Virus record (IMG/VR): IMGVR_UViG_3300021599_001619
Span: 1-21,681 of that record
Strand: one strand, 5' to 3'
DNA length: 21,681 nucleotides
Origin: a virus
The notes below the pieces were generated by a model. It was not told where the DNA came from. It did no database searches and worked only from the letters and a program-made list of their open reading frames with translations. Shown in pieces: positions 1-19,824 of the stretch (the stretch's first letter is position 1; the number at the start of each line of letters is the position of its first letter). Both the position numbers and the translations under genes were made by a program.

Positions 1-876
1 ATATTGTAAATAAATATCTCCATCATTACCTCCAGATGGAGCCGCTGTTCCATAAGTAATTACGGTTCCTGATAAGCCACTTGATCCTGAAGTACCCGAA
101 GTTCCACTACTTCCGCTAGACCCGCTGCTTCCACTTGATCCTGAAGTACCCGAAGTTCCTGAAGTGCCACTTGTTCCAGAGCCACCACCACCACCACTTT
201 GATCAACCCAAGTAGTATCATAATTTGCGTTTGAGGCTTTTGCTAAAACTTGTCCACTTGTTCCACCAGTCGGAACACCAATACCATTTATTCCAGACGA
301 GCCTGAAGAGCCACTTGTTCCTGATGATCCGCTTGTTCCAGAACTGCCTGAAGTGCCGTTTATACCTGAACTACCTGATGTACCATTTATGCCTGAGCTG
401 CCACTAGATCCACTAGAACCAGACGAGCCTGAAGAGCCGCTTGTTCCTGATGATCCGCTTGTTCCAGAACTGCCTGAAGTGCCGTTTATACCTGAACTGC
501 CTGATGTACCATTTATGCCTGAGCTGCCACTAGATCCACTAGAACCAGACGAGCCTGAAGAGCCGCTTGTCCCTGATGATCCACTTGTCCCAGAAGATCC
601 AGAAGTTCCATCGATTCCAGATGAACCGGAAGTACCATCTATTCCTGATGATCCACTTGTGCCAGATGAACCAGAAGTTCCACTGGTTCCTGAAGTCCCA
701 TTTATTCCGTTTGTTCCATCTATACCTGATGTACCGTTAGTGCCAGAGGTTCCATTTATGCCGGAAGTTCCCGAACTGCCAGAACTTCCGCTGTTTCCAG
801 GCGGACCACCCGCTACCGCAGTGACATTTATATCATTGCAATTAGCATCAATAACTATATCATATATACATCCCAT
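1..876 (-). CDS. Collagen-like phage tail fibre protein (C-terminus beyond window)
   Basis: The minus-strand frame opens at ATG 874-876 and stays open to base 1, so the C-terminus is missing. After about 25 residues (starting MGCIYDIVID) it enters Gly-X-Y triplets such as GPPGNSGSSG, dominated by GSS, GTS, GIN and GTN. An interruption around 181-280 reads VPTGGTSGQVLAKASN, a motif I know from phage tail-fibre proteins, followed by a Gly-rich hinge and more GTS/GSS triplets. The last visible residues (APSGGNDGDIYLQY) are also typical of phage collagen-like fibres. Such proteins form trimeric shafts for receptor binding. The Ser/Thr content makes it a plausible glycosylation target (inference). 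It starts 3 nt after the stop of the upstream gene, so the two are probably co-expressed. The plus-strand ORF over the same bases, rich in Pro, Glu and Leu, is an antisense shadow of the glycine codons. Confidence 0.88.
   Translation of the reverse strand, partial: MGCIYDIVIDANCNDINVTAVAGGPPGNSGSSGSSGTSGINGTSGTNGTSGIDGTNGINGTSGTSGTSGSSGTSGSSGIDGTSGSSGIDGTSGSSGTSGSSGTSGSSGSSGSSGSSGSSGINGTSGSSGINGTSGSSGTSGSSGTSGSSGSSGSSGSSGSSGINGTSGSSGINGTSGSSGTSGSSGTSGSSGSSGINGIGVPTGGTSGQVLAKASNANYDTTWVDQSGGGGGSGTSGTSGTSGTSGSSGSSGSSGSSGTSGTSGSSGLSGTVITYGTAAPSGGNDGDIYLQY
293..582. repeat. 126-bp tandem repeat inside the collagen-like fibre gene
   Basis: Two full copies (293-418 and 419-544) differ at only about two positions, and a third partial copy runs from 545 to about 582. 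The period is 126 bp, or 42 codons, or 14 Gly-X-Y triplets, so copy-number change keeps both the reading frame and the collagen register. Near-identity at the DNA level suggests a recent duplication or ongoing homogenisation. Confidence 0.9.
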
Positions 877-1985: not shown

Positions 1986-3158
1986 TTAGACAACTAGACC
2001 AACTAGAGCGCGATTGTCGAGAACCATGCGGCCCTCTTCAAGTGAACCATAGTAACCGATCTTGCCCTGACGAAGAGTATACTGATCATCAGCGACGAGG
2101 TTGAACTCAGAACCGCTGTCAGCATCAACAGCGATAGCGCGAATCAAAGAATCGCGTGATCTGTCAAGACCAACGATAATCTCTTCAGTAGCACCATTGA
2201 AACCTGTAGCAGTGCCACCGTAAGCATTGATACCATAGTGGTCAGCATAAGCTGTGGCACCAGCGACAGTATCGAAGATTGTGTTGAACTTCTTACCAAC
2301 ACCGAATTCAAGAATTTCCATGATGCTAACACCATAGAACTCAGGAAGACCAGCTTGGTTAAAGATTTGATCGCGGACCGCATCTGTTGCAACAACTGGA
2401 GCGTTAGCAGCGGTGTTAGAACCTGCGGCGATTGGAGCTACGGCTGTATTGATAGGATTGTAAGCCATGCCACGAATCTCTTCAACGATTTCTGGAGAAA
2501 CGATAAGATCTGTTAGACCTCTACGAGCGCCAGAAGGAGTTCCACCAACGAAAGAAGCGTTGATACGCTTGATCTTAGTGAACAACTTATTAAGATCGTT
2601 CAATACAAAACGACCAGCAGCAGCAGTACGGAAAACGTGATAGTTATTTGCAGCAGTAGCATCATTTCCGGTGGAAGCTTGAGCTAGAGCAGTCATGAGG
2701 AGGTTAGCAGAAGTTCTCTCTTGCCTTAGCATAACTTCTTGAGCTAGGCGAGTAAAAGACTTACTAACTACATCTAGACGACTCTTGGCGGCATACTTCT
2801 TATCGAAAGCTACAGCACTATCGAGACGATAAGTAGCAATCTTTAACTCAGAAGCGAGAGGTTGAACTACGTTCTGAGGTAGACCACCAGCTACGCTCTG
2901 GCTGTAAACCTTAATATAGTCCTCATCGAAAATATCATAATATAGGTCGAGAGGAATTGAAGGATTATCTTCAGCATTGAACTGAAGACTGGTGAACAAG
3001 TTAGAAACAGTAGGAGCATTGTTGATAACTTCAGCCAAAACTGGACCAATGAATTCAGCCAATGCAACTTGAGCGTCAAAGGCTACTTCACGGTTCTTAG
3101 AGGCTAGAGCTTTGATTAGCTCAACTTGTTCATCTGTTCTCTTTAAAACGATTTTCAT
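1986..3158 (-). CDS. Major capsid protein (HK97-fold type)
   Basis: A 390-aa protein at the end of the head module, where the capsid gene is expected. Recognisable capsid features are a helical N-terminal segment, a long helix-like stretch around residues 120-165 (KSRLDVVSKSFTRLAQEV, then RQERTSANLLMTAL; this would be the spine helix), a beta-rich centre, and a C-terminus that ends in DNRALVGLVV, a type of ending common in phage major capsid proteins. It forms the icosahedral shell, probably after trimming or scaffold removal by the protease encoded upstream. Base composition is clearly more GC-rich than the flanking glycan genes, as often seen for highly expressed genes. Its own terminator follows. 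The assignment rests on context and overall pattern, not on a specific named relative. Confidence 0.85.
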   Translation of the reverse strand: MKIVLKRTDEQVELIKALASKNREVAFDAQVALAEFIGPVLAEVINNAPTVSNLFTSLQFNAEDNPSIPLDLYYDIFDEDYIKVYSQSVAGGLPQNVVQPLASELKIATYRLDSAVAFDKKYAAKSRLDVVSKSFTRLAQEVMLRQERTSANLLMTALAQASTGNDATAANNYHVFRTAAAGRFVLNDLNKLFTKIKRINASFVGGTPSGARRGLTDLIVSPEIVEEIRGMAYNPINTAVAPIAAGSNTAANAPVVATDAVRDQIFNQAGLPEFYGVSIMEILEFGVGKKFNTIFDTVAGATAYADHYGINAYGGTATGFNGATEEIIVGLDRSRDSLIRAIAVDADSGSEFNLVADDQYTLRQGKIGYYGSLEEGRMVLDNRALVGLVV

Positions 3159-3177: not shown

Positions 3178-3858
3178 TTAGACAACGTAAGATGTGGTAC
3201 AGTCGATCTGAACTAGAGCGAATTTGCCAGTTGTACCGGCAGCGGCATAATAATCACTCTTACCATTCTGAGAAGTACGAGTACCTGTTCCAAGAACACG
3301 ACCAATAATACTTGTAGTTCCAGTGAGGGGAGAAATAGCACTAACTGCTAAACCAGAAACTTTACCAGCGTTTGCTGATATAATCAAATGGCTATTTGGG
3401 GCCATTGATGCATCAACCCAGTCGATAGCAGTATCAGCTAGAGTGAAAACGCCGCGAGTAGCTACAGGAACAGCCTGTCCAGTGAGAACAGCTTGTAGTT
3501 CAGCACGTTTGACAGGATTGTAGAGTAATCTCTCACCATTTTCATCAGCAGCAAGGGTCTGATTTAGTGTTAGACCAAGAACTGGCTCACCAGCTGTTGC
3601 AGCAGTGAAGCGCAAAGGTACAGCAGGATATTGAGCAGCACCCAAGAAAGGATAATCTGCCTTACCAAGTGTATTTGTAATATCGGTAGCTGTGTATTGA
3701 ATTGGATCTAAATCCAAGTTACCAGCAGATACCTTGACGAAAACACCAGCTGAACCATTGCCATTTGTAGATGGACTGGCATCAACAGTGTCGCTAGCGT
3801 ACATATTGATAACATCAACGTCGCTATACTGTCTGAATGGATATAATCTTAGTGACAT
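3178..3858 (-). CDS. Putative capsid decoration/head stabilisation protein
   Basis: A 226-aa protein between the protease/scaffold and the major capsid gene, 19 nt upstream of the latter. The sequence is Ala-, Thr-, Gly- and Val-rich with alternating polarity, so mostly beta structure, with no transmembrane segment or catalytic motif. It starts MSLRLYPFRQYSDVDVINMY and ends in TTSYVV. Position, size and the same relatively GC-rich composition as the capsid gene suggest an abundant virion protein, most likely a head decoration protein. A head-completion or minor capsid role is possible. I do not recognise a specific family. Confidence 0.65.
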   Translation of the reverse strand: MSLRLYPFRQYSDVDVINMYASDTVDASPSTNGNGSAGVFVKVSAGNLDLDPIQYTATDITNTLGKADYPFLGAAQYPAVPLRFTAATAGEPVLGLTLNQTLAADENGERLLYNPVKRAELQAVLTGQAVPVATRGVFTLADTAIDWVDASMAPNSHLIISANAGKVSGLAVSAISPLTGTTSIIGRVLGTGTRTSQNGKSDYYAAAGTTGKFALVQIDCTTSYVV

Positions 3859-3864
3859 ATATTT

Positions 3865-5151
3865 TTAAAATTTTACTGTGATATTTTCCTTACTGAAAGC
3901 CTTACCTAGTCTTTCCTTCCAAGAAGTCTTTGTTACCGTTGGGGTATTCGTCTGAGAAGGAATAGTTGGCTCTTCGCGTTTAGCATTTGCTAAAGCTGTT
4001 TCAACCTCAACTGTCTTCTCGACAACTTCAGTTGGTTGAGTCTTTACTTGTCCCATTCTCTTAGCCAACTCGGCCTCAAGACGGTCTTGGAAAATCTTAT
4101 CTTGATCTAGCTTTGAAGCTTTGTTTTTGTGTCTGAATATAACAGCGAGCTTCTCCTTATATGAAGCAAAAGCCTCATCAGTTGTAGCTAAAGCGGAAAT
4201 TTCCTTTGCTAAATAACTACGATCAACTTCGTCTAGATCATACTCGTTATCAAGAGAAGCCATTCTTGAATTATAAATCTCTTGAGCAGCTTGAGCTGAA
4301 ATTGTATTCTGAAGCTCTTGTAACTTAGCGGCAGTTTCAGCGAGCTTCTTGTTGTTGTCTTCAAGATCCTTCTTGAACTGTTCAGCTTGAGCTATAGCTT
4401 CAGCCTTAGCGACTTCAGCTTTTTCCATCTCTAGCTTAATTTCTTCGTTCTTTTGTTTAATGCTGTCAGCGATTTTAGCAGAAATTGAGGCAACTGCTTC
4501 TTCACTAAACTTAACAGTTTCTTGCTTTTCAGCGAGAACTGTCTTTAATGCAGATAGTATTTGTTCTAAATCCATAATTTTAGTTTTGGTATTATTTACA
4601 GGTTGTTTATCAGATTGTGAAAATAATTTATTATTTAAGCTAAGTAAATCTATAGAATTTATCTCGTAGCATTCAGCTTCTTCAACTTCCATTTCATTTT
4701 CTTCATTATCCTCCTCCTCATTATCCTCTTCGTCTTCTTCATTTTCGGTTTTCATTGCTGATGTACCATCATCAATAACAACTCCTTGAACATCAGCAGC
4801 AGGATTTGTATCTGATAAAATTTTATTTTCACCATAAGATGAAAATGCAGAATTAACAATATGACCAACTACTCTTTGCTTTTTATGTTCAATATTTGTT
4901 GGTTTATGTATGAAATATTTCTTAAAAGCAATAGCTGTATTCGTATCGATTCCATCACCATTTTTGTTAAAACGATTTACAACAGCAGCATTAAAAGCTG
5001 CACCAACTAAATCTACATTCTTATCTAAATTAACAGTTGCTGGAATAATAGATTTTAATGGTTCAAGTGAAGCTTGAGATAACAAAATATTTTTATCAAA
5101 GTTCACAGAAGCGGTAACAATATTCTCAAATGATGTCTTATAAAGGAACAT
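3865..5151 (-). CDS. Putative prohead protease fused to scaffold protein
   Basis: A 428-aa protein between portal and capsid genes. Residues about 50-110 contain NKNGDGID, HKPTNIEH (His89) and VVGHIVNSAFSS, a layout I associate with phage prohead maturation proteases; the catalytic Ser cannot be fixed by eye. An acidic stretch follows (about 135-160). From about 193 to 330 the protein is a highly charged Glu/Lys/Ala-rich coiled coil typical of scaffolding proteins, and the C-terminus (about 385-428) is Thr/Pro-rich then basic. Protease and scaffold are separate genes in T4 (gp21, gp22) but fused or nested in other phages (lambda C/Nu3). An internal Met193 (ATG at 4573-4575) begins exactly at the coiled coil and could give a free scaffold. 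No Shine-Dalgarno is seen at either start. Confidence 0.75.
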   Translation of the reverse strand: MFLYKTSFENIVTASVNFDKNILLSQASLEPLKSIIPATVNLDKNVDLVGAAFNAAVVNRFNKNGDGIDTNTAIAFKKYFIHKPTNIEHKKQRVVGHIVNSAFSSYGENKILSDTNPAADVQGVVIDDGTSAMKTENEEDEEDNEEEDNEENEMEVEEAECYEINSIDLLSLNNKLFSQSDKQPVNNTKTKIMDLEQILSALKTVLAEKQETVKFSEEAVASISAKIADSIKQKNEEIKLEMEKAEVAKAEAIAQAEQFKKDLEDNNKKLAETAAKLQELQNTISAQAAQEIYNSRMASLDNEYDLDEVDRSYLAKEISALATTDEAFASYKEKLAVIFRHKNKASKLDQDKIFQDRLEAELAKRMGQVKTQPTEVVEKTVEVETALANAKREEPTIPSQTNTPTVTKTSWKERLGKAFSKENITVKF

Positions 5152-5162
5152 ATTATTAGATT

Positions 5163-7193
5163 TTACACTGAATATTTAGTGCTGTGATACAAAAGACCAG
5201 CGGCATAACTATCTAGTTCGTGTTCTGCGGCAACATTTTGAATATTATTTAATATTCCTAATTTGTCTAATTTTGCAGGATCATTAAGAACTTCAATGGC
5301 TAAATTATTCCATGAATCCAATTCTGAACCCATTATAATTGCTTCAGAAATACCATTAGCTAATTTCTTTTGTTCGACATTTAAAGATTTCTTTGAGTAT
5401 TTCTTTTTTAAACCAGATTCAACTAAACTATATAAATCTTTAGTTCTGTCTAATACTTTTGCAATCGCATCTTTAGAATAAACTGATGCTTTTGCGCCAA
5501 TTGGACGACCTTTTTCATTTGGAGTGGATGTCTTTTTATTTGGAGTCGCTCCACCTACGTCAGGCAATGGAGGCGGAATAACAGGAACGCCGCCAACAAT
5601 TGGATTGTAATAACCTTGTTTTCTTTCTTGAACAAATTTTTCTTGAGCAGAAGCAAGCTCTTCTTTGGTTGGATAAATTCCTGTTTCAATAACCTTTATT
5701 CCTTCTTCAGGAGGAAGAATACCAAGCTCCATCATTCGCGTAACTACACGATTAAATTGAGTTTCATCTTTGATTGATACTTCTTCAAACTTTGCAATTG
5801 GGCATTTTCCTTTGAATCCTAAATTACGAAAAATCAATTCCATTTCAGGCTGTAAAAAATCATTTAAGAAAGCTTTTCTAGCTTCCTTTAATCTTTCGAA
5901 GAACACTTGAGCTTTTACTGTTGTATTAGCAAATTTTTCGGAACCAATTAATATATTTTGCAATCCTTCTTTTATATCTTCATTGACTATTTTATATTTT
6001 TCATAACCTAGAACTCTATTCATATCTGGAATAATAAATTCGGCTTTTGTCGTATAATCAGCGACAAGAACTCTACCAACCGATTGATTACTCAAAAGAC
6101 TTTGCATTGCTTTAATATTTTTATGATTGATGCCACCTTTTGTTGGCTCAGTACCCATAGTAATCAATAAAATTACATTCTCGATTGTGCGGCAAATAGC
6201 TTGATCAATCTTTTTCATTTCCATTTTAAAATTAATATCATCAAGAACTGCAAATCCAAAAGGCACAGCAAAAGGTTCATAGTCTTGTTTCTTATAAAAA
6301 GAATATATAATATTAGTAGGATTTATTTGTATTTTTAGTCCATCTCTTGCCCATTGCCCATTAGTGATCTTATTTTGAGTCTCTTTATCTAAACTATTAA
6401 AAACCATTTTATCATGCTCGTTTTTTGGTGAGCGAAGTCTTTCTAATTCATATTCAGAAAGAATTTTTTGATAAACAACTTGATGCCAAGAACTAGTATG
6501 ATTTGTTGTTAGATAAAAAGGATTCAATAAAATATATTGAACTGGAATCGAATTCTTTATGTCATAATTAGTTGGATAATTATATAATTTTATATCTGTA
6601 TTATAAGAAGCTCCATCATATGAAGCGTATGTTTCTAGAATCTTTTGGAAGTCATCGATCTCAAACTTAGCATTAATCTTGTAAAAGAAAACATTACCAC
6701 TACGATAATACTCGCGGAAATACTGATCTTTAATATTCCACATTCTTGTATACTTCATCCATTTGGCAAAAAAGTCCTTAGCTTTCTGACTACCTCCCTC
6801 AAGATAAATCTCAGCGTTAGCAAACTCAGACATGATATCTACTGCATTTCTAAAAATAGCGACATTAGCATAAGCTTTTTGACACAATTCAATAGCATCG
6901 CGGATATTATATCCGTTTACAGAGAACTCAAAAGGTAATAAACCTTCACGAATATTACCATATTTATAAATTTTTGGTCCTACATATGCTAGATTGCGAC
7001 GAAGATTAGTTGTTTCGCCTGAACCTGTTCTTTCATAAGTCGAAGCTTTTGATTCTTGCTGATAGAATGGATCTCCAACTAAAGAAGGTTCAGAAAAATC
7101 TTTCAACATAGCGTCCAAAGGTTGTGAATGTTCTTCATTAGCTTTAGAGAACTTGTTCCAATAATCTGAACGTTTATTATATTTACGACTCAT
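5163..7193 (-). CDS. Portal protein
   Basis: A 676-aa protein directly after the large terminase, the usual portal position. The dodecameric portal forms the DNA entry channel and nucleates head assembly. The body has the mixed alpha/beta portal pattern: NPFYL-type segments near 224-229, a long central helix region with IDQAICRTIENVILLI (about 329-344), a strand with VGRVLVADY, and the segment from NEDIKEGLQNILIGSEKF to FFERLKEAR (about 404-439), reminiscent of portal stem/wing helices. A Pro/Gly-rich linker follows at about 535-565. The C-terminal tail is helical and ends YHSTKYSV. It is longer than T4 gp20 (about 520 aa), with the extra length mostly C-terminal. It ends 11 nt before the protease/scaffold ATG. 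Confidence 0.82.
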   Translation of the reverse strand: MSRKYNKRSDYWNKFSKANEEHSQPLDAMLKDFSEPSLVGDPFYQQESKASTYERTGSGETTNLRRNLAYVGPKIYKYGNIREGLLPFEFSVNGYNIRDAIELCQKAYANVAIFRNAVDIMSEFANAEIYLEGGSQKAKDFFAKWMKYTRMWNIKDQYFREYYRSGNVFFYKINAKFEIDDFQKILETYASYDGASYNTDIKLYNYPTNYDIKNSIPVQYILLNPFYLTTNHTSSWHQVVYQKILSEYELERLRSPKNEHDKMVFNSLDKETQNKITNGQWARDGLKIQINPTNIIYSFYKKQDYEPFAVPFGFAVLDDINFKMEMKKIDQAICRTIENVILLITMGTEPTKGGINHKNIKAMQSLLSNQSVGRVLVADYTTKAEFIIPDMNRVLGYEKYKIVNEDIKEGLQNILIGSEKFANTTVKAQVFFERLKEARKAFLNDFLQPEMELIFRNLGFKGKCPIAKFEEVSIKDETQFNRVVTRMMELGILPPEEGIKVIETGIYPTKEELASAQEKFVQERKQGYYNPIVGGVPVIPPPLPDVGGATPNKKTSTPNEKGRPIGAKASVYSKDAIAKVLDRTKDLYSLVESGLKKKYSKKSLNVEQKKLANGISEAIIMGSELDSWNNLAIEVLNDPAKLDKLGILNNIQNVAAEHELDSYAAGLLYHSTKYSV

Positions 7194-11074: not shown

Positions 11075-11791
11075 TCACAGTGAAAATAAATCGTTATCTT
11101 TTAATAAATTTTGTGCTTTTAAGTATAGCATTTTTTTCAAATTTTTTATTTGCTTGTAACCAGCTTTTCTACCTTTTTCGTTCGTTTTAAACTTTAAGAT
11201 TTTAGCTACCTGATCATCAGAAAGATTATCAATAAAAAACATTTTATAAATAAAAAAATGTTTATCACTTAAATTTTGTTTCATCAAATCGTGTAGTTTT
11301 TTTTCAGCTGTTTTAAAATCATAAGTTTGAGAAGACTCAAAACTCATGAAATAATTTTTATGATTTTCTAAACTTACAGTGATTTTAATATCGTATGCAG
11401 ATTTCTTTACTTTTTCCCATTTAGCGTACAATGGACATTCATTACACTGTCTTCCACTAAGAGTAAAACCGCAAGACAGATCAAGGCCGTTTTCACTATC
11501 TTTATTTTGATTAAAAGGGCAAGATAAACAAGGTCTAGCATAATTACTATAGTTATTGCGAATTATATTTCGCATTTGATTTGTAACAATGCGATTTATC
11601 CAGGGTTCAATGGCTCGCGTTTGATCCCAAAGATGCCATTTTTTATAAATATGCAGCTTTATGATTTGTTCGATATCTTCAAAATCAAACCAAGTAATCG
11701 CTTTTAATTTCCATTTATTTTTACGCTTCTTGATTACTTGATCAATTGTTTCATACATCTCTTCAAATTTTTTATTTTTACGCTTCATCAA
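11075..11791 (-). CDS. Phage sigma factor (sigma-70 family, ECF-like) with cysteine cluster
   Basis: A 238-aa protein. Residues about 33-80 read like sigma region 2: WFDFEDIEQIIKLHIYK, then WDQTRAIEPWINRIVTNQMRN, matching the D-x-x-D-I-x-Q and W-I-x-R-I-x-x-N pattern. Residues about 188-230 (NLSDDQVAKILKF, then YKQIKNLKKML) look like region 4, the -35-binding helix-turn-helix. Between them lie five Cys (88, 91, 107, 116, 119) in CLSC and CNEC pairs, probably a metal site absent from ordinary ECF sigmas. It would redirect host RNA polymerase to phage promoters, most likely late ones, as T4 gp55 does. It overlaps the zinc-ribbon gene by 14 nt, implying coupled synthesis. Confidence 0.82.
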   Translation of the reverse strand: MMKRKNKKFEEMYETIDQVIKKRKNKWKLKAITWFDFEDIEQIIKLHIYKKWHLWDQTRAIEPWINRIVTNQMRNIIRNNYSNYARPCLSCPFNQNKDSENGLDLSCGFTLSGRQCNECPLYAKWEKVKKSAYDIKITVSLENHKNYFMSFESSQTYDFKTAEKKLHDLMKQNLSDKHFFIYKMFFIDNLSDDQVAKILKFKTNEKGRKAGYKQIKNLKKMLYLKAQNLLKDNDLFSL

Positions 11792-12964: not shown

Positions 12965-14008
12965 ATGATTTTTCACTGTTTAAGTGTTCCTTATTCTCCT
13001 ACAAGAAAAGATATATCATTATGCGCCTTTATTCAAAAAGTTTATAAATTTTGTGATGAAATGACTAAAAGAGGTCATATTGTCTATCATTATGGCCATG
13101 AAGATTCTATTGTTAATTGTACAGAACATATAAATGTTGTTAATAATGATATCTTAAAAGAAAGTTATGGCAACTTAAATGATTGGAAAACAAAAGGGTT
13201 CAATCAAAATATAGATACAAAAGCTGTCAAAATATTTAATGAAAATTGCATTCACGAATTAAATAAAAGAATAAAATCTAATAATGAATTCATACTATGT
13301 TGGTTTGGCTTTGCACACGAACAGTGTGTAAAACATTTCTATAATAAAGCTATTGTAATAGAACCTAGCATTGGATATGATAGTATGTTTGCTCCAATAA
13401 AAATATTCGAAACATATAGTCAAATGCATAAAATGCATGGATTTTCTAAAACGAATATTTCTTTAGGATTAGAACACGTTGTTTATCCAGGTTTCGATAG
13501 TAAGGATTTTATTTATAAAAAAGATAAATCAAATACAGCGTTATTTCTTGGTAGAGTAATCGAAGCTAAAGGAGCAAAACTTGTTTATGATATTTGCAAT
13601 CATATTGGCCAAGATATAATATTTGCAGGGCCAAATATCTTAAATCTCAAAGATACTAAGCATTGTAATTTCATAGGTTTTGTAGAACCTATTCAAAGAA
13701 TGCATTTATTGAGTAATGCAAAATTTTTATTCGCTCCCTCTTTGTTTATAGAACCTTGTAACTGGACTATTATTGAGGCTCAGTTTTCGGGAACCCCTAC
13801 AATAACTACGGATTTTGGCGGTTTTTCGGAAACCGTTGTTGATGGAAAAACTGGTTTTAGATGTCAAGATATCAACAGCATGATAAATAAAATAAAAGAT
13901 ATTGATAAAAAAATTGATTCAAAAAATTGTTATGAAAACGCTTGCGATAAATTTTCAATCAAGAAACATTGTGATTCTTATGAGAGTATTTTTCATAACC
14001 TATTTTAG
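12965..14008 (+). CDS. Family GT4-like glycosyltransferase
   Basis: A 347-aa protein with GT-B fold features. The C-terminal half holds TALFLGRVIEAKGAKL (191-206), the nucleotide-sugar-binding region GFVEPIQRMHLLSNAKFLFAPS, and the EX7E motif (Glu263 and Glu271 in EPCNWTIIEAQ) followed by GTPTITTDFGGFSETV. The product should transfer a sugar from a nucleotide donor to a growing glycan. It is the only plus-strand gene in the first 20 kb, lying between PhoH and the minus-strand 125-aa gene. Its 3' end overlaps that gene tail to tail by 50 nt. No terminator is seen. Very AT-rich, like the rest of the glycan locus, suggesting acquisition as a block or independent insertion of one gene. Confidence 0.9.
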   Translation: MIFHCLSVPYSPTRKDISLCAFIQKVYKFCDEMTKRGHIVYHYGHEDSIVNCTEHINVVNNDILKESYGNLNDWKTKGFNQNIDTKAVKIFNENCIHELNKRIKSNNEFILCWFGFAHEQCVKHFYNKAIVIEPSIGYDSMFAPIKIFETYSQMHKMHGFSKTNISLGLEHVVYPGFDSKDFIYKKDKSNTALFLGRVIEAKGAKLVYDICNHIGQDIIFAGPNILNLKDTKHCNFIGFVEPIQRMHLLSNAKFLFAPSLFIEPCNWTIIEAQFSGTPTITTDFGGFSETVVDGKTGFRCQDINSMINKIKDIDKKIDSKNCYENACDKFSIKKHCDSYESIFHNLF

Positions 14009-14336
14009 ATTCAGATAAGTTAGAATTGAAAAATTTCTTTTGAAAATTTTGTTTTGCAACATGTCTTTGATAATTACAAAAATCAACGTATTGAGCGGTT
14101 ACTTGATTATTCTTAGCTTTGTCAACAGCGTCAAAAGTTAATTCATTAGCTTTAAGCATTTCCTTATATTCTTTAGAGTGTATCATGGATATCCATGTTT
14201 CCTTATCAAATTGATTTTGTAAATGTTGATGACATTGAATCCAAGAATTATATGAATCTGATTTTTTATTTTTTTTGATCTCTAAAATACTTAGATAATC
14301 AAATGCGTAAGCTTCATCGACAGATAATGTAATCAT
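13959..14336 (-). CDS. Glycan-locus-associated protein of unknown function (125 aa)
   Basis: A 125-aa soluble helical protein starting MITLSVDEAYAFDYLSILEIK. This opening resembles the start of small proteins found next to glycosyltransferases (the DUF6165-type I-T-V-S-x-x-E-x-x-D-x-x-S-I-L-E-I-K pattern), though I cannot verify the match. The middle carries WISMIHSKEYKEMLKANE and a run of Asn, Lys and Gln. It begins 1 nt after the stop of the 1557-aa glycosyltransferase gene (TAAAATG), so it is translationally coupled to it, and its last 50 nt overlap the opposing GT4 gene. Function unknown. Confidence 0.68.
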   Translation of the reverse strand: MITLSVDEAYAFDYLSILEIKKNKKSDSYNSWIQCHQHLQNQFDKETWISMIHSKEYKEMLKANELTFDAVDKAKNNQVTAQYVDFCNYQRHVAKQNFQKKFFNSNLSESKIGYEKYSHKNHNVS

Positions 14337-14337
14337 T

Positions 14338-17300
14338 TTAATTTAAAAAGTTTCTTTTAGTTTTATTGACAAAAGATTCGCCAGAATATTGACTAGTCAC
14401 TCTATTGAATAAAATTGCCATGTCAATATTTTCGTCCCAACAAAATTGATTCAACCATCCATCAATAACGTACCAAGGACGATTATTAGAAAAACTTTTT
14501 TTAAGAGAATCTTTAATTGTCTTGTTATACATAATACATTGAGTACCAATTATTTTGTCAGTTATAAAACAATCAACTTGATTATTTGGCACATATTTTA
14601 TATTAGATTGCGGCACACCATAATCTAAAGTTTTTGTATCTCCAAAAGAAAAATAACCAATATTATTTTCTTTGCATGTTGTAGTTATTTTATTCAATAA
14701 AATTATAAATTCAGAATGAGAAATTTCAAACAAACAATCTCCCTCACAAACAATCAAAAAATCAATATCGTCATCGAATTCTTGCATTATAGCTTTTTTA
14801 TGTGAATCAAAACATCCATAATGTCTAGATGTTAATCTATCAGAACTATCAGAAGTCAATAAATCTGGGTATAAACAATTCTTTAAATATTCGTCGCCAT
14901 CATATAAATCATTTTTATGATTAACGTATTTTATACCATAATCTTCAAACTTTTTAATAAATTCTTTTGATTTTTTTTCACTTTCTGTGACTAATGTTGT
15001 TTGAAGGTGAACAATTTTTATTTTTTTTTGAGTAAAGGAAACTGAGTTTTTCAACAATTCATCTATTTTATTGATTACACGTTCTTCTGTAATGTTTTTA
15101 GAACATTCAAAATTTTTATTTTCGGGGCACCATGACCAGTTACTAGGATCAAATTTATGATTTACATTATTGAAACAGCTATTACAAACCGACTTGTCAT
15201 GAACATAATATTCGGTTCCGAATTCAAAAAAAGGATCAACGCTACCATTGATTTTTACTATCTTTTTATTTAAAGCCCAAGCCAACCAAGACAAACCAGA
15301 ACTCAAACCAATAAAAAATTCACATCCATTCATTATATCAATAATTTCTTCAAATGAATGTTCTCCTGCGAAATAATCTATATTACTAGGGCAAGTGTTA
15401 GAATATTTTTTAGTACCAAAACTATAATGTTTATCAACACATACCACTTTATAATTTTTACGCTTAAGATAAGAAACTATTTTTTCCCAAGCACCAGATC
15501 TATTCCAATACCTAGATTGAGAAGTTGATTGTATAGCAATACATACATAATTTTCATATCTAAAATTATATTTTTTGGGAACATGAACTTTTGTACGTGT
15601 TTCTTTGTATTCTAGACCTAGCAAATCAAATGCGATTTTTTGTAAGTTAGAAGTTTGCCAGTTTTTATTAGTTAGATTTGATTGTTTAATATTATCGAAA
15701 CAGCCTATTTTATATTCTACATAATAATTTTTATCATTTTTATCAGCATAATTGAAAAAACTAATATTGGAATATTCTTTTTCAAATATATCTTTTTTAG
15801 CAGTAAAATAGTCTATTTTACAATTGTGTAATTTTTGAAATTCATCCACAGCGGCCATCCAAGCAATCGAATCACCTAAACTATTCGACTCATTAATTAT
15901 GCGAACATTTTTCTTACTTAAATCTAAAGTGAAAGTTTTTTGTAAACGTGATTTGAGATTTGTTACAATAATTTTCCAATCACAATAATAAGCGATAGAA
16001 CATGCGGTCCACATGTTGTTTTTTATTGTTGATCTAAAATGTTCAATGTTATTTTTATTATCTATGAAACGAATTTCATAATCACATGAGACACCACCCA
16101 AGATTTCAATTTTTGGAGTTGGAAAGAATGTGCAAACAACTTTATTACGCTCTTCTTCTATATCAGATAAATTAAAATTTATTATATTTAACATGTTTGT
16201 TTCAAAACATTTAGATAATAAGTATTTTTCTAAATTATCGTTTTTAATGAAATTTATATTTTTATTATTAGAGTATTGATTTTTTATAGTATTAAGTTCA
16301 GACACGAAACAAGGCATGTTCCACGATAAAGCTTCTTTTAGAGCTATTGGATTCAATTCTTCCAAAGATGGCATAACAAAAACATCCATACAAGACATAA
16401 ACACATCAACATCAGATCTTTCACCCCACACTCTACAATTTTTCTGATTTTTGTCTATACCACATTCATCAATATAACAATGATTACCTACAAAATGAAA
16501 TAATATCTTATTACTAATAAATTTTTTTGCTAGTTCGAATGTATATTTTTGATTTTTATTTGAATTGAACAAACCTACTTGCAACACATGAATATAACTC
16601 GGATCTAAGTTTAGAGATCTTAAAACAGATTCTCTATCCGGTTTGTTTTTCTTAGGAATGTCCATTTCAACCAATAAGCTATCAAAATCATTTTTAATAG
16701 CGATATCATAATGATACTTAGAAACTAACCACAATTGATCAGGAATATTTCTTTTTTTAGAAATATCAGATTGTGTAGAGTGAGTCGTCTCATACAACTT
16801 GAATTTTTTGTTTTTATCGTACAAAAAGTCAACCATATCTTGAGATAAATTTTTTATTGCAAAATTTTCACTAAATTCATTCAAATGAATGTAGTCTGGA
16901 TCATATTGCTTTATTTGTTCAATTATATTTTTTGATTTAGAATAAAAAACGTCATCTTGTTCGGTATAATGGCCAACACTAATAAAATTTTCTGCTCCAA
17001 TCAAATTAATTATTGAATTTCTATGTATTACATATGCATCGCTATATAAATTCCATTCTATGACTTTCACAGAGTAACCTTCATTTATTTTTTTTGAAAT
17101 CAACCATTCAAGATATTTCGGACTACCACCTGTGGAAAGATGAGCTGTAATAAATAAGAATTTTTTATTATTTTTGTTATTTGTAAAAATAAAATCACAA
17201 ATTGCGCTAGGTTCTGGATGACAATCAAAATTTGATTTATTTTCTAAACAATTTATTAATGGAGGTATGCCTTGTATAGTTTTCCATTCTTTTACTCCAT

Positions 17301-19011
17301 ATTTGATATCAGAAGCGCAAAAAATACCGCACGGCCCACTGATGTAAGTGTATTTATATTCTTGGCTATTTTTTCTAAATGGAGCGCGTAATTTATTGTT
17401 TATTGATGAGCCAAGTTGTATGATGTGTGTGTCAGTTGTTCCAGCTAAATGCAATAAACCAGAATCCATTGTTATAAAATATTTAGCTTTGTTTATAACA
17501 TGCCAACACTGCGAAATATCTAATTTATTTGTAAGATCTATGCCAATAGTAAAATTTAAATTTTTTGTCGGCTTATCAACATTGTAAAAACCTGTTTCAT
17601 GACTATTTTTTCCAATAAGAACAACAGGTATATTTCTTGAATTTAATAAATCAATCAATCGTTGCCAATTTTTATCAGAATAAGTTCTTGAAGGCCATGT
17701 GTTAGCGACATGTAAACAAATATAATCATTTGGTAAATTTTCTATTGTTATAAAATCATTAGAAACATAATCATATTCCATTTCTTTATCACTTAGCATG
17801 AAACCTAGATCGATAGCATGATATTGGCGAATATCTATTGTATTATGTTTTTTTTCAACTCCGTAATCATTCTTTTTGCCGCCAACTCCGAGAAATGTGT
17901 TAAATATTTCTGAATAAGAACTTTCATCACATTTATCATTAAATTTATATATCTTATCAACGTATTTATTTTTTATGAAAAGCTCTGGATGATACGTGAT
18001 AATATCTATTTTTCTGTTATAAGATTTTGATAATTTTCGCAACGTAGGAGTAACCGCCAAGCTATCACCAAGCGACTGAGAATGAATTTTTAAAAGATAT
18101 TTATTCGTCATGTGGTTTTTCACATAATTATATTCATTGTCTGATATTTTTCCGTGATAAAAAAACAAATGTTTAAGATTTTCTGTTGATGGTATGCGAC
18201 AAAATGTATCTATGAAATAATCAACATCTTTGGGCGCTTGTAAACAAGACAACATTTCAGATATCTTATTTAGAGATTTATCATAATTTTCTGTATTATA
18301 TGGCAAATTAATTAATGATTGACATAGGTCATCTATGTATTCATATTTTTGCCACAATAAACAATTAGCGACTGTTTCTTCATGAAAAGGCGCATAGAAT
18401 TTCCAATTATTTATAATTGTCATGTCATTGCAAATAGTTGACCATTCTTTTATAAAATCTGCGCATTTATTATTAAAGAGAAAGACGCCTGTTTGTAGAT
18501 ATTGTTTTCTATTATTGATATCAAATTTCAAATAATTCAAAAGATTAGCTTCTAATGTTAAATTAAGATCACAATTACCATTTATAAATGGATCTCCTTT
18601 ACCATTGAAAATCATGAAATCATGACAACCTTTATTAAACAAAGGATATTCTGTATTTTTTTTTATTTTATCAAATATATTGTCGCAATTTTTTATTGCT
18701 AAACAATCTGCATCAAGATAACAAAAATTATCTTTGGCGCTAAAATTATGCAATGTATCTTCGACGATTAAAGGCTTTAAAAATACATGATGAACTTTGC
18801 AAAGATCATTATTTTCTACTGAAGACTTTATTTGAGATTTACGGTTATCTGTTGTTATTTTTTTTACTATTACGTTTTTATATTTACAAATATAGTCAAA
18901 ATCAACTGTATAAAATATAATTTTATTCGATGAAAATAAAGATAACGTTTCAAAAAGACGTTCGGCGTATTTTATGTATGTTTTGTCACAATGAGTAACA
19001 TAATAATTCAT
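14338..19011 (-). CDS. Giant multi-domain glycosyltransferase (five GT-like modules)
   Basis: A 1557-aa uninterrupted frame with five successive glycosyltransferase-like regions. (1) About 1-300: GT-A type, with DXD-like motif YLDADCLA (Asp100, Asp102) and YLQTGVFLFN. (2) About 304-610: GT9 heptosyltransferase-like, with HSQSLGDSLAVTPTLRKL, SRTYSDKNWQRL and TMDSGLLHLAG. (3) About 615-935: GT4-like, with AHLSTGGSPKYLEW, VLQVGLFNSNKNQ, and SLEELNPIALKEAL (EX7E). (4) About 955-1325: resembles TibC/BAHT autotransporter O-heptosyltransferases, with INESNSLGDSIAWMAA and four Cys (1276, 1279, 1295, 1303) in CNSC, WCP and FECS. (5) About 1330-1557: GT25-like, with GCFDSHKKAIM and VCEGDCLF. It would assemble a glycan stepwise from nucleotide sugars. 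The ATG lies 3 nt after the epimerase stop and the 125-aa gene follows 1 nt downstream. No signal peptide or transmembrane helix is seen, so cytoplasmic. Confidence 0.87.
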   Translation of the reverse strand: MNYYVTHCDKTYIKYAERLFETLSLFSSNKIIFYTVDFDYICKYKNVIVKKITTDNRKSQIKSSVENNDLCKVHHVFLKPLIVEDTLHNFSAKDNFCYLDADCLAIKNCDNIFDKIKKNTEYPLFNKGCHDFMIFNGKGDPFINGNCDLNLTLEANLLNYLKFDINNRKQYLQTGVFLFNNKCADFIKEWSTICNDMTIINNWKFYAPFHEETVANCLLWQKYEYIDDLCQSLINLPYNTENYDKSLNKISEMLSCLQAPKDVDYFIDTFCRIPSTENLKHLFFYHGKISDNEYNYVKNHMTNKYLLKIHSQSLGDSLAVTPTLRKLSKSYNRKIDIITYHPELFIKNKYVDKIYKFNDKCDESSYSEIFNTFLGVGGKKNDYGVEKKHNTIDIRQYHAIDLGFMLSDKEMEYDYVSNDFITIENLPNDYICLHVANTWPSRTYSDKNWQRLIDLLNSRNIPVVLIGKNSHETGFYNVDKPTKNLNFTIGIDLTNKLDISQCWHVINKAKYFITMDSGLLHLAGTTDTHIIQLGSSINNKLRAPFRKNSQEYKYTYISGPCGIFCASDIKYGVKEWKTIQGIPPLINCLENKSNFDCHPEPSAICDFIFTNNKNNKKFLFITAHLSTGGSPKYLEWLISKKINEGYSVKVIEWNLYSDAYVIHRNSIINLIGAENFISVGHYTEQDDVFYSKSKNIIEQIKQYDPDYIHLNEFSENFAIKNLSQDMVDFLYDKNKKFKLYETTHSTQSDISKKRNIPDQLWLVSKYHYDIAIKNDFDSLLVEMDIPKKNKPDRESVLRSLNLDPSYIHVLQVGLFNSNKNQKYTFELAKKFISNKILFHFVGNHCYIDECGIDKNQKNCRVWGERSDVDVFMSCMDVFVMPSLEELNPIALKEALSWNMPCFVSELNTIKNQYSNNKNINFIKNDNLEKYLLSKCFETNMLNIINFNLSDIEEERNKVVCTFFPTPKIEILGGVSCDYEIRFIDNKNNIEHFRSTIKNNMWTACSIAYYCDWKIIVTNLKSRLQKTFTLDLSKKNVRIINESNSLGDSIAWMAAVDEFQKLHNCKIDYFTAKKDIFEKEYSNISFFNYADKNDKNYYVEYKIGCFDNIKQSNLTNKNWQTSNLQKIAFDLLGLEYKETRTKVHVPKKYNFRYENYVCIAIQSTSQSRYWNRSGAWEKIVSYLKRKNYKVVCVDKHYSFGTKKYSNTCPSNIDYFAGEHSFEEIIDIMNGCEFFIGLSSGLSWLAWALNKKIVKINGSVDPFFEFGTEYYVHDKSVCNSCFNNVNHKFDPSNWSWCPENKNFECSKNITEERVINKIDELLKNSVSFTQKKIKIVHLQTTLVTESEKKSKEFIKKFEDYGIKYVNHKNDLYDGDEYLKNCLYPDLLTSDSSDRLTSRHYGCFDSHKKAIMQEFDDDIDFLIVCEGDCLFEISHSEFIILLNKITTTCKENNIGYFSFGDTKTLDYGVPQSNIKYVPNNQVDCFITDKIIGTQCIMYNKTIKDSLKKSFSNNRPWYVIDGWLNQFCWDENIDMAILFNRVTSQYSGESFVNKTKRNFLN

Positions 19012-19014
19012 GTT

Positions 19015-19824
19015 TTATAAAATAGATTTTAATTTATTGATATCAGCGCAAGAATGCCTAACTTCTTTTCTTGCTTCCTTGTATATTATATTATTTCCAA
19101 ACTGTTTTGCTAGTGTATTTATAGAAATTGATTGGCCGGTTCCAATATTTAAAATATCATTTTTTACATCAGCAGTTAATAATTTAGAAACATAATTACA
19201 TATATCATTTACATTTATAAAATCGCGAGTTTGTTCGCCATCACCATATATAATCAAAGGTTGATTATTTTTCGCGGCATTATTAAAAGCAGTAATTACA
19301 CCAGCATATTCTGGATTTTGACCGTGACCATATACATTAAAGAATCGCAATATTAGATAATCTATATTCCATAGTTGACAATACATTTGTATATATTTTT
19401 CAGATGCTAATTTATCTAATCCGTATGGACTGTTAGGTTCTGTAATATCGTTTTCACTAACAGTTCCTTCTTTAGGCCCATACACTGATGCGCTAGAAGA
19501 GAATAAAAATTTCTTGATTTTATGAACGTGGGCGGCTTGCAATAATTTCACAGTCAAGAATGTATTGTTGCCAAAACTATTTATCGGATCTTCAAATGAT
19601 CGCGGCACACTAACCATACCTGCGAGATGAATAATGACATCTGTATCATTAAGAAAAACATCGTTAACGTCAATATCCAATATATCTATTATTTTTTGTT
19701 TGTCAGCTGGAAGTTCGGGGCTGCAAATTTTATCTAAATTATATATATCGTGTCCATCATTTAATAACTTTTTTGTGATATGTTTGCCGATAAAGCCGCT
19801 GCCGCCAGTTATAAGTATTTTCAT
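19015..19824 (-). CDS. NAD-dependent sugar-nucleotide epimerase/dehydratase (extended SDR)
   Basis: A 269-aa protein with the extended SDR layout: Rossmann motif GGSGFIG (7-13), IIHLAGMVSVPRSFEDP (64-80), the catalytic Ser region SSSASVYG (109-116), Tyr134/Lys138 in YGLDK, and RFFNVYGHGQNP. It should act on a nucleotide-activated sugar, in the manner of UDP-glucose 4-epimerase or related enzymes, and supply donors for the adjacent glycosyltransferases. It ends at ADINKLKSIL, some 30-40 residues short of the usual SDR C-terminus, so part of the substrate domain may be reduced. Its stop is 3 nt from the ATG of the giant glycosyltransferase. A TATAAT lies 8 nt before its ATG; it heads the leftward operon. 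Confidence 0.92.
   Translation of the reverse strand: MKILITGGSGFIGKHITKKLLNDGHDIYNLDKICSPELPADKQKIIDILDIDVNDVFLNDTDVIIHLAGMVSVPRSFEDPINSFGNNTFLTVKLLQAAHVHKIKKFLFSSSASVYGPKEGTVSENDITEPNSPYGLDKLASEKYIQMYCQLWNIDYLILRFFNVYGHGQNPEYAGVITAFNNAAKNNQPLIIYGDGEQTRDFINVNDICNYVSKLLTADVKNDILNIGTGQSISINTLAKQFGNNIIYKEARKEVRHSCADINKLKSIL

Follow-up and report, generated by a model that had tools for sequence, protein, structure and literature searches.

Among described viral systems, the closest analogue of the gene analyzed here is A111/114R of Chlorovirus PBCV-1, a single viral polypeptide carrying several glycosyltransferase (GT) domains of ~300 amino acids (aa) each, for which the addition of successive sugars to a virion glycoprotein has been proposed (PMC7826918). 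TibC is a protein O-glycosyltransferase that hyperglycosylates serines in the repeats of its partner protein (PMC4358343), and the GTs of aquatic phage have so far been interpreted as modifiers of lipopolysaccharide (LPS) or DNA (PMC7029224, PMC10202952). We analyzed the viral contig IMGVR_UViG_3300021599_001619 (21.7 kb; the whole stretch, positions 1-21,681, is referred to as the window), which derives from a freshwater-type phage. A single ATG-started open reading frame (ORF) on its minus strand (14338..19011, stop codon included) encodes 1557 aa without internal stops and contains five GT modules. On balance, this protein is probably a multi-module glycan synthase, and the tail fibre of the phage itself, with its GTSG/GSSG repeats, would carry the defined oligosaccharide on Ser/Thr.

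The protein was cut into modules M1 to M5 at aa 302, 614, 948, and 1328. All five are GTs, distributed over two folds, GT-A (M1 and M5) and GT-B (M2, M3, and M4). Profile and structure matches, together with intact catalytic motifs, bear out the original prediction of five GT modules in one frame and agree with the boundaries it had placed at aa 300/304, 610/615, 935/955, and 1325/1330; we looked both for fewer than four confident GT matches and for a misjoined frame, and found neither. The "five different folds" of that prediction are only two, and M2 and M4 are detectably homologous to each other (tblastn 3e-10). The full-length protein matched no PHROGs family with confidence.

M4 (aa 949-1328; 15028..16167, minus strand) is a TibC-like O-glycosyltransferase with an N-terminal beta region and iron-finger cysteines. 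It matches the Aah/TibC O-heptosyltransferase model TIGR04414 over profile positions 28-373 of 374 with 268 bits (1.2e-79; curated cut-off 200) and the TibC crystal structure 4rap with an E-value of 1.8e-45. The TibC catalytic base Asp-110 corresponds to D99 of M4 (aa 1047 of the whole protein), a position occupied by Asp in 27 of 28 sequences with one gap, and the iron-finger cysteines 339/342/358/370 correspond to C328/331/347/355. Thr-215, Lys/Arg-219, Trp-294, and the four Cys are likewise kept, barring single gaps or exceptions.

The two other GT-B modules were assigned through Pfam. M2 (aa 303-614; 17170..18105, minus strand) is a GT9 heptosyltransferase-like module (1.1e-22, 81 bits, cut-off 22) that also matches WaaC weakly. 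It contains the DSGxxH motif (D-[ST]-G-x-x-H), with D14, D214, G216, and H219 invariant in 11 sequences, as are four cysteines (C259/263/286/295). M3 (aa 615-948; 16168..17169, minus strand) belongs to GT4, matching Glycos_transf_1 (4.8e-11, 42.9 bits, cut-off 26.4), and the glutamates of its EX7E motif, E271 and E279, are invariant in 24 sequences.

Assignment of the GT-A modules leaned on predicted structures. M1 (aa 1-302; 18106..19011, minus strand) matched no Pfam or NCBIfam family, but it carries a DxD motif at aa 100-102 and HEET at 210-213, and residues D100, D102, Q173-G175, H210-E212, and H286 are invariant in 10 sequences. An AlphaFold2 model built from nine relatives (pLDDT 85.1) matched LARGE1 (Foldseek 2.4e-8), glycogenin (Z 16.2, rmsd 3.2 over 196 residues, VIA-align), and LgtC (Z 15.8, VIA-align). 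GT8 and GT6 structures are equal in Z, and the model clearly points to a GT-A fold glycosyltransferase that is an orphan as to family. M5 (aa 1329-1557; 14341..15027, minus strand) is GT25-like: the Pfam GT25 score (2.9e-4, 21.2 bits) lies slightly below the gathering score of 24, the same model matches 8 of 19 relatives at E<=1 (best 5e-6), and a profile match to a solved GT25 enzyme reaches 9.6e-4. The closest solved fold to its AlphaFold2 model (pLDDT 92.9) is COLGALT1 (Z 18.7, 208 residues, rmsd 3.0), followed by mimivirus R655 (Z 15.8) and bacterial GT25 (Z 14.3). The usual GT25 motif is EDD; the acidic ExD motif of M5 reads EGD.

Across the representatives that were aligned, no variation was seen in the DxD and HEET motifs of M1, the DSGxxH of M2, the EX7E of M3, or the EGD of M5. 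Catalytic motifs are intact in all five modules, and enzymatic activity is predicted from these sequences. Each module is under purifying selection, since pN/pS between the window and the divergent contig L010 is 0.27-0.45 in every one of them. Integrity of the frame is supported from two sides. The product of L001, an independently assembled contig, is 100% identical over all 1557 aa, and a second contig, L002, encodes a 100% identical protein from inside M2 to the C-terminal end. The divergent contigs L010 and L011 carry M1-M2-M3-M4-M5 in one frame of 1561 aa, at 55-73% identity by module and with no long A run at the M4/M5 joint. Together, the identical and the divergent contigs rule out an assembly artefact.

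In the window, the M4/M5 joint contains an A9 tract (15021..15029, minus strand). In the relative L003 (best segment 64% identity), the corresponding region (L003:5096-5121) contains an A10 and then an A7 tract; the M1-M4 part is 1331 aa long, and M5 lies in a different frame after the A10. Because the M5 reading in L003 (KKIKLVHLQTT) is conserved upstream of the only common start codon of M5, either the A10 is a one-base homopolymer difference or error, it marks a site of slippage, or M5 has only recently been split off.

Module profiles applied to the fetched loci of relatives revealed that the five-module form is one variant within a widespread phage family. Besides M1-M2-M3-M4-M5, single frames contain M1-M2-M3-M4 (1317-1330 aa), M2-M3-M4, or M1-M3-M4, as well as the permuted fusions M4-M5-M3 and M5-M3-M4. 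Other relatives split the set into two genes, M1-M2 and M3-M4-M5, or into M3-M5 and GT4-M4, and in some the same modules are adjacent as separate genes. Among contigs with a close PhoH relative, 42 of 45 carry M4, and the frames that contain it reach 1895 aa. The longest (L426:1458-7142) has M1 and M2 followed by M3 and M4, with an FkbM methyltransferase and a weakly matching GT2-like region inserted between the two pairs; other frames contain FkbM, GT2, and two GT4 domains. A second M4-like gene of 275-310 aa, shorter and devoid of the N-terminal beta region, is present in several relatives (L066:12914-13759, L178-L182, L191, L430:7022-7885), often after the multi-GT gene.

The occurrence of an identical module set both fused and separate supports one shared pathway. 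The original prediction had also taken module order for the order of oligosaccharide assembly; permuted, split, and inserted modules in relatives contradict this, and since permutations exist, the sequence of sugars cannot be read from the linear arrangement of modules. A shared pathway is thus supported, while a positional "assembly line" is not. These observations raise the possibility, to which we give slightly less than an even chance, of a general plug-in system. In it, one long polypeptide, put together during evolution from GT, methyltransferase, and TibC-like modules that can replace one another, would build a lineage-specific O-glycan on (GTSG)n collagen-like tail fibres. Such a system would be a phage counterpart to modular synthases, in which domain shuffling diversifies virion surface glycans.

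A candidate acceptor, overlooked in the original prediction, is encoded in the window itself. The gene at 1..876 (minus strand, cut by the contig end) encodes a Ser/Thr-rich collagen-like (Gly-Ser/Thr-Ser/Thr)n protein with GTSG/GSSG repeats and matches to tail-fibre and collagen-like-tail PHROGs, which perhaps rest partly on repeat composition. A test of adjacency confined to the first 8-kb flanks, a reach that proved too short, detected a repeat gene in 8 of 67 loci and was replaced by searches of whole records with a random control, 50 viral contigs picked by a neutral 15-mer. Of 54 records with modules, 26 also encode repeat proteins (21/32 when only records over 25 kb are counted, 11/13 over 100 kb) versus 0 of the 50 random contigs, and a reversed-pattern control gave 0 throughout. 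In the reverse test, M4 was detected in 17 of 50 repeat-carrying contigs versus 0 of 50 random ones (Fisher 1.5e-6); the M4 search itself works, since the same query matches 42/45 and 17/50 records of the other sets. A control within the clade was impossible, 42 of 45 PhoH-linked contigs carrying M4. The repeat gene lies 24 bp from the GT genes in L005 and 32 bp in L036, abuts them in L055, is next to them in L405 and L396, and is 1.7 kb away in L006 and L034. The p-values overstate independence because the contigs are related to one another; the stronger point is the spread of the association over unlike phage, including a 735-kb phage, Microcystis phage Mel-JY01, and the clade of the window. 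In Mel-JY01, a multi-domain protein with a TibC-like part is encoded close to a GTSG-repeat protein.

We propose a model where M4 would place the first sugar on Ser/Thr of the tail-fibre repeats, a role we infer because TibC hyperglycosylates repeat serines. The GT9, GT4, GT25-like, and GT-A modules would then lengthen the glycan begun by M4, and a GalE-like epimerase encoded at 19015-19824 would supply one nucleotide sugar. The model also draws on the closest solved fold of M5, that of the collagen galactosyltransferase COLGALT1, and on the shared orientation of the GT and terminase genes. Fusion may serve to hold the enzymes together, in fixed ratio, on a multivalent acceptor, and the linear order of modules would not set the order of sugars. 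The acceptor, the starting module, the donors, and the sugar order are all predictions of this model, as is enzymatic activity.

Several observations weigh against it. TibC modified Ser, not Thr (PMC4358343). TibC Arg-286, which contacts the adenine of ADP-heptose, is replaced by Ile in M4 and by I/V/R/A/L/T/C in relatives, and sequence alignment alone places Lys/Tyr at the Phe-265/Val-266 thumb tip. Judged by these residues, use of ADP-heptose by M4 and assembly of a TibC-type dodecamer are both doubtful. The window's repeat gene lies 13 kb from the GT gene rather than adjacent to it, and 33 of 50 repeat-carrying contigs have no M4; many of these are fragments, some probably not. The contigs also lack phylogenetic independence, and part of the link could stem from a common aquatic habitat. 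With Ile in place of Arg-286 and no fixed residue at this position among relatives, the first sugar could be one other than heptose, and the loss of Arg-286 and the thumb-tip residues is the reason M4 is named TibC-like and not filed as BAHT. ADP-heptose, the donor suggested by the family, is weakened as a candidate by the loss of Arg-286; RfaE domain II genes were found above cut-off in only 1 of 24 large relatives. That RfaE/HldE domain II gene lies at 13632-14054 of G030, the contig of L036, where it occurs together with M3-M5, GT4-M4, and a GTSG protein encoded next to the GT genes.

The synthase might instead alter a host surface glycan (LPS or another polysaccharide) during infection and thereby block superinfection by other phage, an explanation we regard as unlikely. 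LPS synthesis typically involves enzymes of the GT9, GT25, GT4, and GT8-like kinds, the GTs of pelagimyophages have been interpreted in this way (PMC7029224), and the HldE/RfaE domain II gene of the one relative would fit. However, M4 is closest to a protein O-glycosyltransferase and the modules are strongly linked to tail proteins with Ser/Thr repeats. Among the window ORFs, not every one of which was tested, we identified no flippase, polymerase, or acyltransferase, and no lysogeny gene was identified. We consider it improbable, and more so, that the acceptor is another virion protein such as the capsid or tail tube. This would parallel mycobacteriophages, for which capsid and tail-tube glycosylation is known (Freeman 2023, cited in PMC12619734), and would suit the GT gene's sharing of a strand block with terminase and the presumed head genes, but it leaves the enrichment of repeat proteins unaccounted for. 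Hypermodification of phage DNA bases is very improbable: many phage GTs act so, and base-modifying genes could sit outside the window of this incomplete genome, but no match to a known DNA GT family emerged for any of the five modules, the nearest counterpart of M4 is a protein glycosyltransferase, and the tail-repeat link would be left unexplained. Finally, that the long frame joins separate genes through assembly or sequencing error, or that M5 is normally a separate protein, is hardly credible and already contradicted, since L003 with M5 in another frame past its A10 run and L060-L065 with no M5 in their M1-M4 frame are outweighed by the independent, identical L001 and L002 and by the divergent five-module frame of L010/L011, whose joint lacks a long A run.

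As the original prediction stated, genes for an epimerase and for another GT4 enzyme lie next to the GT gene. The epimerase gene (19015..19824, minus strand), directly upstream, encodes a 269-aa NAD-dependent sugar epimerase/dehydratase (Pfam Epimerase 1e-55) that scores 1.5e-41 against the GalE model, below its cut-off, and has identical position and length in L003. Directly downstream, a 125-aa protein without assigned function (13959..14336, minus strand) is conserved in L003; the separate 347-aa GT4 gene (12965..14008, plus strand) matches Pfam GT4 (3.1e-15) and the glycosyltransferase family phrog_3408 (2.9e-63). The GT gene is co-oriented with the terminase gene, whose product matches Firmicutes phages and Microcystis phage MaeS at 24-27%, too uninformative for host assignment. 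M5 offers no host link either, because 271 pattern hits in bacterial genomes held no M5 relatives. The genes at 1986-3158, 3178-3858, 3865-5151, and 5163-7193, which follow terminase, are by position likely head genes and have no PHROG match; the 1986-3158 protein, the one searched against a phage collection, gave no hit. On these grounds the phage is far from cultured ones. A TTG-started protein at 11075-11791 has a weak sigma-factor match and CxxC pairs, and is conserved in L003. The segment 19825-21681 differs in composition (GC up to 0.55 versus ~0.27 in the GT gene), has simple-sequence stretches close to its end, and may stem from another part of the genome or from a join made in assembly; the right end of the window diverges from L001 near the terminus.

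Comparison with known systems places the protein closest to A111/114R of PBCV-1, which differs in having three GT domains, in belonging to a eukaryotic algal virus, and in acting on an N-glycan of a capsid protein; the window protein has five domains, including a TibC-like one, and comes from a tailed phage, its product being predicted only. The architecture had been thought undescribed, and no five-GT phage protein was found in the open-access literature searched; it belongs, however, to a widespread phage family rich in such variants, and viral proteins with several GTs have been described before, the one we found having fewer GT domains (three in A111/114R, PMC7826918). M4 resembles the TibC/AAH autotransporter heptosyltransferases (PMC4358343) in scoring above the TIGR04414 cut-off, in keeping the catalytic Asp, Thr, Lys/Arg, Trp, and four iron-finger Cys, and in the Ser-bearing repeats of the putative acceptor, but it is fused inside a multi-GT protein, has lost Arg-286 and the thumb-tip residues, and has no autotransporter in sight in the window. 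M5 shares its fold and acidic ExD motif with the GT25 collagen galactosyltransferases COLGALT1 and mimivirus R655, and collagen-like proteins are encoded in the same genome; identity is 13-16%, the motif is EGD, and whereas COLGALT1 acts on collagen hydroxylysine, the M5 acceptor is presumably a sugar or Ser/Thr. In mycobacteriophages, phage-encoded GTs also glycosylate the particle (Freeman 2023, cited in PMC12619734), but they are separate enzymes that modify other proteins in phage of another host group. If our model is correct, it identifies the enzyme, the acceptor, and the logic of glycan building behind virion glycosylation in many uncultured aquatic phage that form a large group, and it offers a single polypeptide for testing how five GTs cooperate. 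Glycans on the tail fibre would then matter for recognizing the host and for evading its defences, and the shuffling of modules would add a new means of varying these glycans. Virus-encoded multi-GT proteins and phage virion glycosylation were already known; what is unusual here is the modular evolution, and the proposed acceptor is testable.
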